Shown here: positions 16,333-23,347 of the stretch, piece after piece | Layout of the letters: every line of letters starts with the position of its first letter | Position numbering within the stretch: the stretch's first letter is position 1 | Assembly: GCA_900319855.1 (NCBI GenBank) | Contig: ONQC01000020.1 | Span: 1 to 42,862 of the forward strand | Direction: 5' to 3' | Origin: an uncultured Bacteroidales bacterium | GTDB taxonomy: Bacteria; Bacteroidota; Bacteroidia; Bacteroidales; UBA932 | DNA: 42,862 nucleotides | Notes under the pieces: model-generated | Database searches by the model: none | Seen by the model: the letters and a program-made list of their open reading frames with translations, nothing else | Told to the model about the DNA's origin: nothing | Translations under genes and position numbers: made by a program

Positions 16333-17578
16333 CAAACGGACTGACGCAGATTACGCGACTTCCGCCGTCGACAGAGCCGGCCGGAAGAGCAACCTGAGCA
16401 TGTTTATGGTCATGCTCGGCTTTACCTTCTTTTCCGCGAGCATGTGGGTGGGTCAGCAACTGGCTGACGGCCTGAACTTCACGGATTTCCTGTGGGCCCT
16501 CCTCCTGGGCGGCCTGATCCTGGCTGCGTATACCGGATCGCTGGGCTATATCGGTGCGGAAAGCGGTCTTTCCCTGGATATGCTGGCACGCCGCAGTTTC
16601 GGAGAAAAGGGGAGCTGGCTCCCCAGCGCGATGATCAGTTTCACCCAGATCGGCTGGTTCGGTGTCGGCCTGGCGATGTTCGCCATTCCGGTCGCCAAGG
16701 AGTTCCTCCACCTCGAGGTGACGCCGGAGACCATGCCGTGGCAGGGATACCTGCTGGTCGCCATCGCGGGCGTGCTGATGACGGCGAGCGCCTATTTCGG
16801 CATCAAGAGCCTGACCATCATCAGTTACATCGCCGTCCCGGCCGTTGCGATCCTGGGTACTGTAGCGATGATCATGGCCGTCAGGCAAGGGGACGCGGGC
16901 CTGGTGGAGCAGTTCTCGAAAGGGACGAAGGGCCTGGGCGTCATTGCCGGAGCGGGTCTGGTCGTGGGCAGTTTCGTGTCGGGCGGTACCGCGACGCCGA
17001 ACTTTACCCGGTTCGCCAAAAATGCCAAGGTCGGCCTTTGGACGACCGTGGTCGCGTTCTTCATCGGCAACAGCCTGATGTTCTTCTTCGGAGCGGTCTC
17101 CAGTATCTATGCGGGCGGCAATGACATCTTCGAGGTGATGCTCAATCTCAACCTTTTCTATCTGGCCGTTTTCGTCCTGGGCCTGAACATTTGGACCACC
17201 AATGACAACGCCTTGTATTCCGCCGGTCTCGGCCTGTCGAACATCTTCGGTTTGAGCAAGAAGGCCATGGTGCTGATCGCCGGCGTGATCGGTACGGTCG
17301 CCGCCGTCTGGCTGTACTGGAATTTCGTGGGCTGGCTGAATGTGCTGAACTGCACCCTTCCGCCGGTGGGCATCATCCTGATCCTTTCCTATTTCCTGAA
17401 CCGGAAGGCTTATCTGGAGGACAAGGTCGTCATCCGGAAAGTGAACTGGTTCGCCGTTGCGGGCGTGGTCCTGGGCGCCGTGGTCGCCAACCTGGTCCAC
17501 TGGGGTTTCGCCTCCATCAACGGCATGGTCGTGGCCGCGATTTGCTACCTGGCGGGACAACATCTTTGCAAAAAGTAA
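16325..17578 (+). CDS. codB: Cytosine permease (NCS1 family)
   Basis: 417-aa inner-membrane transporter with about 12 helices. FSASMWVGQQLADGL near the start and the SFVSGGTATPNFTRFAKN segment resemble CodB of the NCS1 nucleobase:cation symporters. The start MSNKRTDADYATS overlaps the end of the PRTase-like gene, indicating translational coupling and a joint role in uptake and use of a base. No cytosine deaminase gene is nearby, so the actual substrate (cytosine or another base) is inferred from the family. Confidence 0.85.
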   Translation: MSNKRTDADYATSAVDRAGRKSNLSMFMVMLGFTFFSASMWVGQQLADGLNFTDFLWALLLGGLILAAYTGSLGYIGAESGLSLDMLARRSFGEKGSWLPSAMISFTQIGWFGVGLAMFAIPVAKEFLHLEVTPETMPWQGYLLVAIAGVLMTASAYFGIKSLTIISYIAVPAVAILGTVAMIMAVRQGDAGLVEQFSKGTKGLGVIAGAGLVVGSFVSGGTATPNFTRFAKNAKVGLWTTVVAFFIGNSLMFFFGAVSSIYAGGNDIFEVMLNLNLFYLAVFVLGLNIWTTNDNALYSAGLGLSNIFGLSKKAMVLIAGVIGTVAAVWLYWNFVGWLNVLNCTLPPVGIILILSYFLNRKAYLEDKVVIRKVNWFAVAGVVLGAVVANLVHWGFASINGMVVAAICYLAGQHLCKK

Positions 17579-17615: not shown

Positions 17616-18317
17616 ATGGGAAAATTATTCGACGAGCTGAGCAAGGATCCCCGTCTGAAAGAGGGGTTGAAGACCTGTATCAATTGCGGGACTTGCACGG
17701 CCATCTGCCCGGCTGCCGAGTTCTACCGCTATGACCCGCGCAAGATCGTGGATACGGTCCAGCGCAAGGACGATGCGGAGATAGAAGCGCTGCTGCGCAG
17801 TGAGACCATCTGGTATTGCGGGGAATGCATGTCGTGCATGACCCGCTGCCCCCGCAAGAACGGGGCGGGCCTGGTCATCATGGCCCTGCGACACCTTTCC
17901 ATCCGGCTGGGCTACTTCACGGAATCAGAAAAGGGACGGCAGATATGGCCGTTGACCAAGGCCTTGAATACGAACGTCCTGCAATATGGCTATTGTGTCC
18001 ATCCCGCGACATTCGCTTTCGAGGACCATCCGGAATCCGGCCCTGTTTTCCAATGGGCGTTGGCGCACAAGGAGGATGTCTATGCCCGCCTCGGTGCCAA
18101 CTACCAGGGCAAGGGTCCCGGTGTGCTGCGGCGCATCCCGCAGGCGGACCTGGATGAACTGAAGGCCATCTATGACGAGACCGGAGGAACGGAACGGATC
18201 GAACTGGTAGAACGGTATTCCCGGGCCAAGGCCGCGGAGATGGGAATGACCCTCGATGAATATACGGCCTATACGTTTAACCATTGCTCTCCGGGCCATT
18301 TCAACAACGGATTATGA
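17616..18317 (+). CDS. HdrC-like iron-sulfur subunit
   Basis: 233-aa soluble protein with two [4Fe-4S] ligand sets: C21/C24/C27/C31 (CINCGTCTAICP) and C68/C71/C74/C78 (CGECMSCMTRCP). This spacing and the intervening RYDPRKIVDTVQR match HdrC of heterodisulfide reductase, the electron carrier between HdrA and HdrB. The C-terminal part (about 100-233) is longer than in methanogen HdrC and has no recognised domain. It is the first of five overlapping hdr-like genes; its stop overlaps the next ATG (ATGA). Confidence 0.85.
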   Translation: MGKLFDELSKDPRLKEGLKTCINCGTCTAICPAAEFYRYDPRKIVDTVQRKDDAEIEALLRSETIWYCGECMSCMTRCPRKNGAGLVIMALRHLSIRLGYFTESEKGRQIWPLTKALNTNVLQYGYCVHPATFAFEDHPESGPVFQWALAHKEDVYARLGANYQGKGPGVLRRIPQADLDELKAIYDETGGTERIELVERYSRAKAAEMGMTLDEYTAYTFNHCSPGHFNNGL

Positions 18318-19384
18318 TCTATCAGGGAAAACAGAAAATATGGTCGGACTATCAGAAGGAAATCCCTTCCGACCATTGGTTCTATGTCCGGAGCTGTATC
18401 CGCCAGAGTTTTTTCCCGGGTTCCGAAAAATGGTTCCTGGGCATCTGCCGGGATATGCTGGGCAAGGATATCCATGAAACCGAGCACCATACGACTTGCG
18501 GCGGCATCGCTTACCACTGCGATGTGATCCCGCAGCTGACGGCCATGACCATCGTAGCCCGGCAGTTCGCGCTGATGACCGAAGCCGGTTACAAGAACCT
18601 GGTAGCCTCGTGCATCACCTCTTTCGGCAATTATACCGAGACGCTGGAGACCTGGCGCGAGTTCCCGGAGCTGGAGGCCCGTGTCCGGGAAGCCCTCTGG
18701 AAGTCTTGCCGGCGGGAGTTTGAAAAGCCGGAGTATGTGGCCCATGCCAGCGACCTGATCTATAAGTTCCGTGGTGAAATCGCTGAAAAAGCGAAGTTCC
18801 GCCTGGTCGACCATCGGACGGGGGAGCCGCTTCGCGTCGTGGAGCATATCGGCTGCCACTATTCGAAGATGTTCCCGCACAAGGGTGTCGGCGGCGCGGA
18901 GTATCCGTGTGTGCTGAGCGGCATGGCTGAGTCTTGGGGCGGCCGGATCATTGACTATCCGGAGCGGCGGCATTGCTGCGGTTTCGGATTCCGCCAGTAC
19001 CTGGTCAAGGCCAACCGGGGTTATTCCATGAGCAATACCCACAAGAAATTCGAATCCATGGAACCCTACCACCCGGATATGATCATCACCAACTGTCCGG
19101 GATGCCCGTATTTCCTGGACCGCTGGCAGTATGTCATTTCCGAGCAGACGGGAAAGACCTATGGACAGAACGGATATGGGATTCCGGTCCTCACCTATGA
19201 AGAACTGGCCGGACTGGTCCTGGGCATCGATCCCTGGGACCTGGGCCTGCAGATCCACCAGGTGGCGGTCGAGCCCTTGCTGGATAAGCTGGGCATCGCC
19301 TATGATCCTGCCAAGAAATACTTGGGCCTTAACGAGAAAGATATCATGAAACCGGGCCTCCCCACGGTCCTCAGATGTTGCTAG
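18314..19384 (+). CDS. HdrB-like protein with one intact and one degenerate CCG motif
   Basis: 356 aa. HdrB carries two cysteine-rich CCG modules that hold non-cubane [4Fe-4S] clusters and cleave disulfides. Here the second module is complete: GCHY, RHCCGFGF and NCPGCPYF in order. The first is incomplete: C28, then TCGG (C62) in place of CC, then C100-I-T-S in place of CxxC. One of the two non-cubane clusters may therefore be absent or bound differently. The start overlaps the HdrC stop. An extra 10 residues upstream are possible but lie inside the previous gene. Confidence 0.82.
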   Translation: MIYQGKQKIWSDYQKEIPSDHWFYVRSCIRQSFFPGSEKWFLGICRDMLGKDIHETEHHTTCGGIAYHCDVIPQLTAMTIVARQFALMTEAGYKNLVASCITSFGNYTETLETWREFPELEARVREALWKSCRREFEKPEYVAHASDLIYKFRGEIAEKAKFRLVDHRTGEPLRVVEHIGCHYSKMFPHKGVGGAEYPCVLSGMAESWGGRIIDYPERRHCCGFGFRQYLVKANRGYSMSNTHKKFESMEPYHPDMIITNCPGCPYFLDRWQYVISEQTGKTYGQNGYGIPVLTYEELAGLVLGIDPWDLGLQIHQVAVEPLLDKLGIAYDPAKKYLGLNEKDIMKPGLPTVLRCC

Positions 19385-20415
19385 TTATGGAAGGTAAACC
19401 CAATAAAGAGCAAGTCGCCATCATCGGGGCCGGTATCGCCGGCCTGGAGGCTGCGCATCAGTTGCTCCGGCTCGGTTATGCGCCGGTCCTGATTGAACAG
19501 GCGGACCACGCCGGCGGCCATGTCGCCGAATGGAACCGTTTGTTCCCGGACAAGGCACCGGCGGCTCCGCTGGTGGAGGAGTTGTTGGAACAGACCCGTG
19601 AAGCGACCTTGATCCTTCGGGCGAAGATCCTCTCCGCCGGGCGGTTGGGCGATGGCTTCAATATCCGGCTTTCTGACGGAACGTCCCTGCATGTCCGGGC
19701 CATCCTGATGGCTACGGGATTCAGCCTGTTCGAGGCATGGAAAAAGGAAGAGTATGGCTACGGCGTTTATGACCGTGTACTTACAAATGCTGATCTGGAG
19801 CATTGGTTCAATACCGGGGACGATACCCGGATCAAGGGTGACCTGAAGCGTATCGGCTTTGTCCATTGCGTTGGCTCCCGGGATGTGAAGGCCGGGAACA
19901 CCCAGTGTTCCAAGGTCTGCTGCATTACAGCCATCAAACAGGCCATCGAGATGAAGGAACGCTTCCCGGAGGCGGAGATCTGGTGTTTTTACATGGACCT
20001 GCGCCTGTTCGGAAAGAAATATGAAGATTTCTATATCGGCGCCCAGCGGGATTACGGCATCCACTTCATCCGGGGACGCGTGTCGGAGGTGTCCGAAAAC
20101 ATCGACGGGAAGGTGATTGTCAAGGCGGAGGATACGCTGAACGGAAAACCCGTGAAGGTGACCTTGGATGCGTTGGTGCTGATGGCGGGGATGGTCTGCA
20201 ATCGCGACATCCAGCCTTTGGCAAAGGAACTCTCCCTGTCCATCGACGATGACGGCTATCTCAAAAGCCGCGACAACATCGGTTCGGTTACGCGTTCCGA
20301 CCGGAAAGGCATCTTCCTGGCCGGTGCCGCGACGGGTCCCAAGACGATTCCGGAGACCCTTGCGGAAGCGCGCAGCGCTGCCCTGGATATCCATAACTTC
20401 TTAAGCGGCGAGTAA
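19375..20415 (+). CDS. Short HdrA-like FAD protein
   Basis: 346 aa. The dinucleotide-binding motif is IIGAGIAG (18-23), and the HdrA-specific cluster motif is HCVGSRD then CSKVCC (C165, C178, C182, C183). The C-terminal GIFLAGAATGPKTIPETLAEARSAA is the FAD-contacting end typical of HdrA and QmoA. It lacks the ferredoxin-type CxxCxxCxxxC inserts and C-terminal extension of bifurcating HdrA, so it is nearer in size to QmoA. ATG 19387, three bases after the HdrB stop, is an equally good start. The stop overlaps the next ATG (TAATG). Confidence 0.85.
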   Translation: MLLVMEGKPNKEQVAIIGAGIAGLEAAHQLLRLGYAPVLIEQADHAGGHVAEWNRLFPDKAPAAPLVEELLEQTREATLILRAKILSAGRLGDGFNIRLSDGTSLHVRAILMATGFSLFEAWKKEEYGYGVYDRVLTNADLEHWFNTGDDTRIKGDLKRIGFVHCVGSRDVKAGNTQCSKVCCITAIKQAIEMKERFPEAEIWCFYMDLRLFGKKYEDFYIGAQRDYGIHFIRGRVSEVSENIDGKVIVKAEDTLNGKPVKVTLDALVLMAGMVCNRDIQPLAKELSLSIDDDGYLKSRDNIGSVTRSDRKGIFLAGAATGPKTIPETLAEARSAALDIHNFLSGE

Positions 20416-20768
20416 TGGATTTCGGTTTTTCACTGGCGCCCAGTTCCGCCGTCAACCTGGATACGGTCGACCTGTCCCGTTATAACCGTCTGGTCCGATT
20501 GGAACCGGATGCCCGCATCTGCATGGCATGCGGGAGTTGCAGTGCGACCTGCACGGCCGGTCCCTTTTCCGGGATGAGCGTGCGCAAGGTCTTGCTCGGT
20601 CTGCAGCGGGGACAGGATGCGCAGGTCAACAGGATGCTGTCGGCCTGCATGCTGTGCGGGAAATGCACGATGGTCTGTCCGCGTGGTATCAATACGAGGA
20701 ATCTGATCCTGAACCTTTGCCGGATTGCGGCGGATGGTTCCGTTTCGAAAGGGGAGGGCCGTCTATGA
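20415..20768 (+). CDS. Second HdrC-like protein, 2x[4Fe-4S]
   Basis: 117 aa, soluble. Two cluster motifs: C36/C39/C42/C46 (CMACGSCSATCTAG) and C78/C81/C84/C88 (CMLCGKCTMVCPRG), separated by VRKVLLGLQRGQDAQVNRML, the usual HdrC helix. Shorter than the first HdrC-like protein and without its C-terminal part. The gene overlaps both neighbours by 1-4 bases. It probably passes electrons between the FAD subunit and the membrane subunit encoded next. Confidence 0.85.
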   Translation: MDFGFSLAPSSAVNLDTVDLSRYNRLVRLEPDARICMACGSCSATCTAGPFSGMSVRKVLLGLQRGQDAQVNRMLSACMLCGKCTMVCPRGINTRNLILNLCRIAADGSVSKGEGRL

Positions 20769-22582
20769 TTGAACGGATTCCCGGCGCTTTCCATCCTTTC
20801 GTGCTGCCCTTTGTGTTCGGCATGCTGTTCGTCCTGACTTATTGTCTGGTCGGGATGATACGGGTATTCTTCGAGTTGCCGCGGGAGGACCGGAAGCGTT
20901 TCCTGATCAGTCTGGTTACCCCGAAAACGATCTGGAAGAATATCAAGGACATATTCCTGAACTGCCTGATCCACGTGAAACTGTGGAAGCGGAACAAGGT
21001 GTTGGGCTATATGCATTCCAGCATCGCCTTCGGCTGGTTCATGCTGATCTTGCTCGGACACATCGAGGTGATGCTGTTCCTGCCGCACCGGGTCCGTTTT
21101 TTCTATTATCCGATCTTTTTCAATTTCTTCGTTGCCGAGGCCGATGCGACCATCCAGGGGAAGGTCCTGATGTTCCTGATGGATATTTCCCTGTTGTTTG
21201 TCCTGAGCGGTATCCTCCTGGCGATCTACAAACGTTTCCGGTCACGGTTCTTCGGGATGCGGCGGACCACGCGGCCGTCCTTCCTGGACCGGATTGCGAT
21301 GTATGCGCTGTGGGCCATTTTCCCGCTCCGGCTGTTGGCGGAGACCTTTACGGCCCATATCAGCGGCGGCAGTTTCCTGACCGAGCCGGCCGGACTGCTG
21401 TTCCACCGGTTCATCTCGAATGATATCCATGTCCTGCCGACCTGGTGGGCCTATTCGATTGCGCTCTGCATCTTCATGGTGCTGCTGCCGTTTACCCGGT
21501 ATATGCACATTCCGGCCGAGATGCTGCTGATCCCGATGCGGAACGCCGGCATCAAGATCCGTCATCCGCGCAAGGGCTTTGCCAAGCTGGAGTATTACAC
21601 CTGCCCGAATTGCGGTGTTTGTATCGATGCCTGCCCGATGAGCGTCCGGAAAGAGAACCTGAAAGACTGTACGGTGTATCTGAACCGGCAGCTTCGCAGG
21701 GGGAACGAGCGTCGGATTGCGCAGATCAGCGACAAGTGCTTGTTATGCGGTAAGTGTTCGGCTGTCTGCCAGGTAGGCGTCCAGGGCCCTGAACTGCGAC
21801 TGGCCCAGCGGGAACTTCGGCCCTACGCCCTGACGCCGGATTACTCGGCCATCGACACGGCTTCCATGCAGGCGGCCGTAAGCGCAAAGCCGGCCAAGGT
21901 CCTGTATTTCGCCGGTTGCATGACCGCGTTGACCCCCGGGATCCGGCGTGCGACCGAAACGCTCCTCAAAGCCGCCGGGATCGATTACCAGCTGATGGAT
22001 CCGGAAGGCGGGCTGTGCTGCGGACGTCCGTTGATGATGGCCGGCCGGAAGGAGGCTGCGCAGGCGTTGATCCGCAAGAATGTGGAAATCATCCGTGCCA
22101 GCGGCTGCGATACCTTGCTGCTGTCCTGTCCGATCTGTTACCGGGTATTCCTGGAATCCTATCCGCTGGAGGGCATCCGGGTGGTGCACCACAGTGTTTT
22201 CCTGGAAGAACTGATGCGTGAGGGCCGGCTTCCGGTGGAATATACTTCCGGCAGCTATGTGTTCCATGATCCCTGCGAACTGGGGCGCGGATGCGGGATC
22301 TACGAGGAGCCGAGGGCGGCTTTGCGTCGCATCGGATTCCTGCATGAAGCGGAGAAACATCATGCGGAGAGCATCTGCTGCGGCGGGAGCCTGGGCAGTC
22401 TCTCGCTGGGATTTGAAAAGCGGAAGGATATTACGATGAATGCCTTGCATAATTTGACAGCCAACGATCCGGAAACCATCGTGACGGCTTGTCCGTTGTG
22501 CCGGAGTACGTTTGCCCGTTATGCGGACCGGCCGGTGGAGGATTTGTCGGAAGTCCTTGTCAATCATTTAAAAAGTAGATAG
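20765..22582 (+). CDS. Membrane HdrE-HdrD fusion-like iron-sulfur protein
   Basis: 605 aa. The N-terminal 260 residues have about five membrane helices, with histidines (GYMHSSIAFGWFMLILLGH, PFTRYMHIP) placed like the heme b ligands of NarI/HdrE-type subunits. Two [4Fe-4S] sets follow: C280/283/286/290 and C325/328/331/335. The C-terminal half has two complete CCG modules: C385, C418-C419, C455/C458, and C504, C538-C539, C576/C579. This is an HdrE-like plus HdrD-like protein in one chain, suited to exchange electrons with quinone. The start overlaps the previous stop (ATGA). Confidence 0.85.
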   Translation: MIERIPGAFHPFVLPFVFGMLFVLTYCLVGMIRVFFELPREDRKRFLISLVTPKTIWKNIKDIFLNCLIHVKLWKRNKVLGYMHSSIAFGWFMLILLGHIEVMLFLPHRVRFFYYPIFFNFFVAEADATIQGKVLMFLMDISLLFVLSGILLAIYKRFRSRFFGMRRTTRPSFLDRIAMYALWAIFPLRLLAETFTAHISGGSFLTEPAGLLFHRFISNDIHVLPTWWAYSIALCIFMVLLPFTRYMHIPAEMLLIPMRNAGIKIRHPRKGFAKLEYYTCPNCGVCIDACPMSVRKENLKDCTVYLNRQLRRGNERRIAQISDKCLLCGKCSAVCQVGVQGPELRLAQRELRPYALTPDYSAIDTASMQAAVSAKPAKVLYFAGCMTALTPGIRRATETLLKAAGIDYQLMDPEGGLCCGRPLMMAGRKEAAQALIRKNVEIIRASGCDTLLLSCPICYRVFLESYPLEGIRVVHHSVFLEELMREGRLPVEYTSGSYVFHDPCELGRGCGIYEEPRAALRRIGFLHEAEKHHAESICCGGSLGSLSLGFEKRKDITMNALHNLTANDPETIVTACPLCRSTFARYADRPVEDLSEVLVNHLKSR

Positions 22583-22585
22583 ACC

Positions 22586-23347
22586 ATGAGCAAAATCGTC
22601 TTGATTACCGGCGCGACCAGCGGCATCGGAGCCGCTTGCGCCTTCCGTTTTGCGAAAGCAGGCGGCTATGATTTGATCCTGACGGGGCGGAATGCCCGTA
22701 AACTCGAAGACGTGACCGCCCGGGTCAAGGAAACGGGTTGCCGTGTCCTGCCCTTGCTCTTTGATGTCCGTGTCCGCGAATCTTGTATCCGCGCCGTGGA
22801 GCAGTTGCCTTCCGAATGGCGCGAGATCGATATCCTGGTCAACAATGCCGGCCTGGCTTTGGGCCTGGAACCGGAGTTCGAGGGCCGTTTCGAGGATTGG
22901 GACACAATGATCGATACCAATATCAAGGGACTGCTCAACATGACGCGTCTGGTCGTTCCCGGCATGGTGGAACGGGGCAGGGGACATGTGATCAACATCG
23001 GGTCGGTGGCCGGCGACGCGGCCTATGCCAACGGCGGCGTGTACTGTGCGACCAAGGCGGCGGTCAAGACCTTGACGGATGGCCTGCGGCTCGATCTGGC
23101 GGCCACGCCGGTGCGGGTGACCAATGTCAAGCCCGGACTGGTGGAGACCAACTTCAGCAATGTGCGTTTCCATGGCGATACGCAGCGGGCTTCCCGGGTG
23201 TATGAGGGCATCGAGCCGCTGACCGGCGATGATATCGCCGATGTGGTCCTGTATGCGACCCAGGCGCCCGCCCATGTCCAGATCGCGGAAGTGCTTGTCC
23301 TGGCTACGCACCAGGCTAGCGGCAGTGTCATCCATCGCGAATCATGA
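22586..23347 (+). CDS. SDR-family NAD(P)-dependent oxidoreductase
   Basis: 253-aa classical short-chain dehydrogenase. TGATSGIG (8-15) binds the cofactor, NNAG (86-89) stabilises the fold, and S140, Y153 and K157 form the catalytic set. R35 after the second strand (LTGRN) favours NADP. It resembles YdfG-type 3-hydroxy acid dehydrogenases, though substrate cannot be read from sequence. It begins 3 nt after the membrane Hdr-like gene and overlaps the next gene by 4 nt, so it belongs to the same transcript. Confidence 0.88.
   Translation: MSKIVLITGATSGIGAACAFRFAKAGGYDLILTGRNARKLEDVTARVKETGCRVLPLLFDVRVRESCIRAVEQLPSEWREIDILVNNAGLALGLEPEFEGRFEDWDTMIDTNIKGLLNMTRLVVPGMVERGRGHVINIGSVAGDAAYANGGVYCATKAAVKTLTDGLRLDLAATPVRVTNVKPGLVETNFSNVRFHGDTQRASRVYEGIEPLTGDDIADVVLYATQAPAHVQIAEVLVLATHQASGSVIHRES

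Follow-up and report, generated by a model that had tools for sequence, protein, structure and literature searches.

A conserved five-gene Hdr-like block with a membrane HdrE-HdrD fusion in Bacteroidales

The five-gene block and its conservation

The window analysed here, a stretch of 42,862 nucleotides of contig ONQC01000020.1 from an uncultured Bacteroidales bacterium, carries a block of five heterodisulfide reductase (Hdr)-like genes, C1, B, A, C2 and ED, which follow one another on the forward strand between positions 17616 and 22582 with overlaps of 4, 10, 1 and 4 bases (an alternative ATG for A at 19387 would abolish the B/A overlap). C1 (17616..18317) encodes an HdrC-like protein of 233 amino acids (aa) with two [4Fe-4S] motifs and a conserved, sHdrC1-like C-terminal extension, and B (18314..19384) an HdrB-like protein of 356 aa with an sHdrB1-style degenerate N-module (C28, T61-C62, C100..S103) and a complete C-module (C181, C221-C222, C261, C264). 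A (19375..20415) encodes a short HdrA of 346 aa from the flavin adenine dinucleotide (FAD)-type fold family, with one [4Fe-4S] motif (C165, C178, C182, C183) and without ferredoxin domains, and C2 (20415..20768) a second HdrC-like protein of 117 aa with two [4Fe-4S] motifs. ED (20765..22582) encodes a membrane HdrE-HdrD fusion of 605 aa that combines NarI-like helices, two [4Fe-4S] motifs and two complete CCG noncubane modules. In a domain search, 4Fe-4S dicluster domains were recognised in C1 and C2, one CCG domain in B, Rossmann/FAD families in A, and 4Fe-4S domains together with two CCG stretches in ED.

The first-pass annotation of this DNA had treated the five overlapping genes as one unit, and the block is confirmed as genuine. 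ED has a match (E <= 1e-70) in 65 of 198 genomes of the same order, the window's included. Loci were taken with enlarged flanks from 40 of the other 64 carriers; the order C1-B-A-C2-ED is kept in 36 of them and is rearranged to C1-C2-ED-B-A in two (L060 and L062). The full order is also found in 73 of 80 named loci, the block lying at or near a contig end in the other seven (for L112 as judged from coordinates), and a scan of a genome collection returned at least 576 relatives among at least 595 matching stretches. A cultured, non-pathogenic bacterium, Muribaculum sp. An289 (L136), is among the carriers. Because the order recurs across loci and the cluster cysteines are invariant in 37 to 40 aligned rows per protein, the block is beyond chance; the possibility that it is unique to this genome, which the first-pass annotation had named as fatal to its proposal, fails, and we rejected a one-genome or decayed oddity. 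Among 296 genomes drawn from the whole phylum, an HdrB profile matched seven at E <= 1e-20, with 670 bits for the window genome and 149 for the next. G126, a 99% complete genome of the same family, has no ED match better than E 3.8e-4, so that the block is also missing from close kin.

Cluster ligands and kinship of the core

MAFFT alignments were made for C1 (37 sequences), B (39), A (37), C2 (40) and ED (38), rows being dropped if the predicted length fell outside 0.8-1.3 of that of the window protein or if a stop was present. The cubane-motif cysteines of C1, C2 and ED are invariant in these alignments, as are the cysteines listed above for A and for both modules of B. The same is true, in 38 of 38 rows, of the ten cysteines in the two CCG sets of ED (C385, C418, C419, C455 and C458; C504, C538, C539, C576 and C579), which bears out the earlier description of ED as an HdrE-HdrD fusion with two [4Fe-4S] sets and two complete CCG modules. 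Before residue 250, ED has just three invariant histidines, H70, H84 and H248, which would suit a single b heme of the EtfD kind, and the structure model of ED, which includes the N-terminal helices, has the predicted fold of EtfD. Mean column identity, calculated on different row sets, is 72% for B, 60% for C1, 55% for A and 44% for ED.

B is HdrB-like, as had been proposed, but it is not a plain HdrB, two of the five ligand cysteines of its N-module being gone: in a profile alignment with 5odc_B, which is also the best PDB match of the B structure model (mean predicted local distance difference test score 81.8), Thr61 aligns with Cys41 and Ser103 with Cys81, the bridging cysteine. The description of A as a short HdrA without ferredoxin inserts holds, its main match to HdrA chains of 643-671 aa being to their middle (residues 318-559 of 9sfi_A). 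Against sHdrA (6TJR), A scores 202 bits in a single stretch (14-338) that covers almost its entire length; the best long HdrA also gives 202 bits, but there the main match is the middle part of the chain.

The core was compared with two type II-like sHdr loci, a single cyanobacterium and a single B protein from Acidithiobacillus. The two loci, from genomes of another family of the phylum (G202 and G284), resemble type II sHdr and encode a DsrE-like protein, a 153-aa LbpA-like protein, C1, B1, A, a 428-aa fused C2B2-like protein, EtfB and EtfA; names were assigned by reading sequences and gene order against the definitions in passages of PMC11582611, and no H gene was identified in these loci. 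For C1, B and A, identity to the window proteins is 48%, 41% and 41% in a plasmid cluster of Picosynechococcus sp. PCC 7003, 28%, 29% and 33% in G202, and 29%, 29% and 31% in G284. The motifs T[ST]C and CxTSF/Y are common to the B proteins of the Bacteroidales, the cyanobacterium, Acidithiobacillus and G202/G284 and are missing from the compared HdrB, B2 and SdhE-like proteins, whereas the C-module reads NCPGC in the Bacteroidales and the cyanobacterium and HDTGC or QDTGC in the three sHdrB1-type proteins. In a tree, the 17 B proteins of these groups split from four HdrB, B2 and SdhE-like proteins with support of 100/99, on long branches. Judged from sequence, the soluble part is an sHdr-type C1-B1-A core and not a methanogen-type HdrABC. 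The statement that the chain combines both known Hdr types thus stands for the membrane subunit and falls for the soluble part; because the core matches sHdr, it should read that an sHdr-type core is combined with an EtfD/HdrDE-type membrane subunit.

Two observations were made on the reference loci. The type II-like locus of G284 (L163:608-10127) also contains a 701-aa EtfD-like membrane fusion beside EtfBA, and sHdr in this genome seems to reach quinone through the electron transfer flavoprotein (ETF). On an Acidithiobacillus ferrooxidans plasmid (L153:787-4490), a lone sHdrB1-like gene lies near genes for an annotated glycine cleavage H protein and hemerythrin-domain proteins.

A candidate thiol- or persulfide-oxidising complex

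From the gene set and order, their conservation, the ligand sets and the predicted folds of B and ED, we infer that the block encodes a membrane-bound thiol/persulfide:menaquinone oxidoreductase in which the five proteins form one complex, a reading to which we assign a probability of roughly one half. In this model, (i) a single membrane-anchored complex would consist of the sHdr-type core C1-B-A, the small ferredoxin-like linker C2 and the EtfD/HdrDE-type ED, (ii) a thiol, dithiol or protein-bound persulfide would be oxidised at the complete C-terminal noncubane [4Fe-4S] cluster of B, (iii) the cubanes of C1 would carry electrons from B to A with its FAD and cluster, and C2 would relay them from A to ED with its noncubane and cubane clusters, and (iv) ED would hand them on to one b heme and then to menaquinone, which would be reduced. 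The two complete HdrD-type clusters of ED may offer a second substrate site. The direction toward quinone is suggested because common dithiols have potentials more negative than that of menaquinone.

Several observations weigh against this model. Parts of the block can be dissociated, given that L056 retains only C1-C2-ED, without A and B, and L042 only A-C2-ED, without C1 and B. Quinone-pathway genes do not distinguish carriers from non-carriers: in a comparison of 40 carriers chosen from the 65 with 40 non-carriers, all at least 95% complete and not independent of one another, MenB was over the cut-off in 9/40 carriers and 16/40 non-carriers (p 0.15), an MqnC-family match at E <= 1e-40 was present in 22/40 and 15/39 (p 0.18; the matches of at most 337 bits in G006, G063 and G080 are possible paralogues, and G080 has MenB), and one or the other was present in 30/40 and 30/39. 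Ten of the 40 carriers, including G008 of the window's genus, are without both, and neither MenB nor MqnC gave a match in the window genome (2.15 Mb, 60 contigs, 90.9% complete). G001, one of these ten carriers, is also without MenA and a b558-type fumarate/succinate subunit, both of which were sought in 26 genomes, and an obligate quinone link is genuinely hard to uphold in this carrier; a congeneric genome, G120, is the one with C1-C2-ED only (L056). Finally, no linked gene names a substrate, either in neighbour clustering or in a direct search for LbpA, DsrE, EtfA and EtfB.

The window genome and G008 both have MenA (over the cut-off in the window genome) and a b558-type fumarate/succinate subunit, though MenB and MqnC gave no match. 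Quinone salvage is known in vitamin-K-requiring Bacteroidales and is likely in the window's genus. Given the missing MenB/MqnC match in the window genome, quinone would be obtained through MenA salvage, or the quinone link fails. The link proposed in the first-pass annotation is plausible but only partly supported: the EtfD fold and the conserved histidines of ED speak for it, while the lack of a MenB/MqnC match in the window genome, which has MenA and the b558-type subunit, and the ten carriers without both speak against it.

The search for partners covered 41 neighbourhoods (the 40 enlarged loci and the window), in which non-overlapping frames of at least 80 aa were clustered at thresholds of 30% identity and 60% length. 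The block itself accounts for the five clusters that recur in 32-40 loci, and no further cluster exceeds 4 loci; because the C2 cluster was recovered in only 32 loci, small genes in single loci may be overlooked. Neighbours in two to four loci, named by eye, include an apparent sensor kinase/response regulator pair, adenylosuccinate lyase, threonine synthase and a short-chain dehydrogenase, among others, and none is general. Queries for LbpA, DsrE, EtfA and EtfB from G202 and G284 found no relative at E <= 1e-5 in the 41 neighbourhoods and the 80 named loci. As a control the two reference loci detect each other; the LbpA queries missed the ordinary GcvH of L166, and a very divergent LbpA could escape detection. 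A PF01597 search of 80 genomes (E <= 1e-15) gave a strong GcvH-family match in 38/40 carriers and 36/40 non-carriers, extra matches in five carriers sitting in open frames of at least 245 aa. The sole strong GcvH match of the window genome is a 125-aa frame that has no cysteine and adjoins a frame read as gcvP-like, its second PF01597 match reads as biotin-carrier-like, and this search yielded no evidence for a dedicated LbpA in the window genome or the 40 carriers. The block works alone or with partners encoded elsewhere.

Around the block, 10 window proteins outside it were scanned with Pfam, and two of them have no match to any family. Families of hydrogenase, formate dehydrogenase, MvhD or sulfate reduction did not show among the 10, in agreement with the first-pass annotation. 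A cytosine/purine-type permease frame ends at 17578, upstream of C1. A short-chain dehydrogenase gene (22586-23347, forward strand) starts three bases after the ED stop and is probably co-transcribed with the block in the window; it is not a conserved neighbour. A protein with a DsbD-type membrane domain and a thioredoxin domain is encoded at 435-2465 on the reverse strand, about 15 kb from the block, with no evidence of a link between this thiol/disulfide protein and the block. G+C content is 0.573-0.585 in the 2-kb windows overlapping the block and 0.540-0.594 across the whole window. The nearest named relatives among the matches listed are metagenome-assembled genomes of rumen and gut Bacteroidales, including Candidatus Cryptobacteroides species. 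In G024, a second Hdr/Qmo-like set, assigned by reading, lies upstream of the block across one opposite-strand gene (L052:6-5633) and comprises an 851-aa flavoprotein frame, a 657-aa HdrA-like frame and a 355-aa QmoC-like HdrC-membrane protein. The variant loci L042, L056, L060 and L062 are useful for asking which parts of the block are needed.

Four alternatives to a thiol/persulfide:menaquinone oxidoreductase were weighed. Electrons could flow the other way, the block being a quinol-driven disulfide, polysulfide or heterodisulfide reductase with the HdrD clusters of ED as active site and C1-B-A as a side branch; methanogen HdrDE uses methanophenazine to reduce CoM-S-S-CoB. We regard this as rather unlikely: the ten noncubane cysteines of ED are invariant, unlike in EtfD, and L056 retains C1-C2-ED without A and B, but menaquinol has little power to reduce common disulfides, and conservation is higher in B than in the other three subunits for which identity was calculated, which argues against a side branch. 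Still lower odds are given to true sHdr sulfane-sulfur oxidation, with lipoate-bound sulfur on LbpA as substrate and ED as a new quinone outlet. The sHdr-type C1, the B1-like N-module and A do occur in sHdr order, and part of ED is distantly related to the type II-like B3 (E ~1e-19 to 1e-20). However, the passages of PMC6067878 describe LbpA genes as "inevitably" associated with hdr-like genes and LbpA proteins as having two conserved cysteines, some archaeal ones excepted, whereas the loci yielded no LbpA or DsrE relative within the sensitivity stated above, the strong GcvH of the window genome is cysteine-free beside its gcvP-like frame, the second match is biotin-carrier-like, and the C-module of B reads NCPGC in place of HDTGC or QDTGC.

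Entry of electrons from ETF, as in an EtfD-like ETF:menaquinone oxidoreductase (EMO), is comparably improbable. The predicted EtfD fold of ED, the occurrence of ETF alpha in 38/40 carriers and the EtfBA genes beside an EtfD-like fusion in G284, as named by reading, all point toward it; yet ETF alpha is equally frequent in non-carriers (38/40), no EtfA or EtfB relative is found at the loci, ED has Cys419 and Ile457 where EtfD has Thr539 and His583, and four additional Hdr subunits would be left unexplained. A ferredoxin-linked or flavin-bifurcating heterodisulfide-reductase-like complex has a similarly slim chance, for although an FAD-type HdrA homologue is flanked by two HdrC-like ferredoxins, A mainly matches the middle of much longer HdrA chains, and MvhD, hydrogenase and formate dehydrogenase are absent from the nearby proteins scanned; for the ferredoxin route that the first-pass annotation had offered beside the quinone link, no direct support was obtained.

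Roughly one in three of the species sampled from this order, a major one in gut and rumen, carries ED, nearly always within the block. If the block is a thiol:quinone oxidoreductase, it would give electrons an unrecognised way into anaerobic respiration in Bacteroidales and would link sHdr, HdrDE and EtfD in one machine, and gut metagenome annotations that read "CoB-CoM heterodisulfide reductase" or "sHdr sulfur oxidation" may then be mistaken.

Relation to known Hdr-like systems

QmoABC is a quinone-interacting Hdr-like membrane complex with two HdrA-like subunits and QmoC, and its partner is AprAB. The block is likewise an Hdr-like membrane system with putative quinone interaction, but it has a single short HdrA, an HdrB and an HdrD-fused membrane subunit, and Qmo was rejected on this subunit composition; the qmoC model, with a cut-off of 300, gave C1 a score of 42 bits and C2 one of 24, and the aprA model found 0/43 genomes, its control being likewise silent everywhere. 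HdrABC of the methanogen or bifurcating type has a long HdrA with additional ferredoxin domains, and in its HdrB both noncubane clusters are complete (Cys81 and Cys234 equivalents). It was rejected, the HdrA of the block being too short and its HdrB N-module degenerate, with only the C-module complete. Methanogen HdrDE resembles ED in its HdrE-like and HdrD-like parts and two complete CCG modules; in the block, these parts are fused in one chain and encoded with C1-B-A-C2. EtfD (mycobacteria, PDB 9OJN) and EMO bind one b heme through a pair of histidines; the predicted fold of ED matches that of EtfD and its histidine spacing is similar, with no heme seen. From EtfD, FadF and DgcB it differs in its complete HdrD-type cysteines, its five-gene Hdr setting and the lack of linked etf genes: Cys419 and Ile457 occupy the alignment columns of Thr539 and His583, which passages of PMC13083937 assign to the noncatalytic clusters of EtfD.

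In passages of PMC11582611, sHdr type I is defined by the core genes shdrC1B1AHC2B2 and type II by shdrC1B1AHB3 and etfAB, each in one syntenic cluster. The block shares with both the C1-B1-A core, a short HdrA of the 6TJR kind and the B1 N-module, and differs from both in its membrane ED, the complete C-module of B and the lack of a detected lbpA. The C1-B-A-C2 order of type I is present, but A is followed directly by C2 with no H gene, and ED is present where type I has a separate B2; of type II, the loci show no EtfA or EtfB relative and no B3 gene, B3 queries giving matches only at E ~1e-17 to 1e-20, with the best places within ED. The nearest relative found of the Bacteroidales core is the cluster on the Picosynechococcus plasmid (NZ_CP016476.1; L152:8242-13982), in which C1-B-A-C2 stand in the same order and B has the same degenerate N-module and complete C-module. 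There, a separate HdrB-like B2 and a 428-aa sulfide:quinone reductase (SQR)-like flavoprotein, with weak likeness to type III sulfide:quinone reductase, take the place of ED as a different quinone-type module.

The first-pass annotation had named a conserved five-gene block distinct from Qmo and sHdr as support for a separate type. The block is indeed conserved in many genomes and differs in composition from Qmo and from the two published types of sHdr, and we regard it as a novel form of Hdr-like complex. Our literature search, confined to open-licence texts with subscription papers outside its scope, found no description of it, including in passages of PMC10266427, PMC13083937, PMC6067878, PMC13384644, PMC8002359, PMC10332631, PMC12345210, PMC6085437 and PMC11582611. 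Because every part has a known relative, no new principle is involved. Tentatively, and with less confidence than in the oxidoreductase itself, we suggest that the block represents a third, LbpA-free class of Hdr-like systems, a dedicated thiol-/persulfide-oxidising, quinone-reducing C1-B-A-C2-ED complex that would be widespread in anaerobic Bacteroidales, some gut carriers running it on salvaged menaquinone, and sister to the cyanobacterial form with the SQR-like module, the sHdr core acting, originally or by later acquisition, as a general sulfur-redox head plugged into varied quinone modules.

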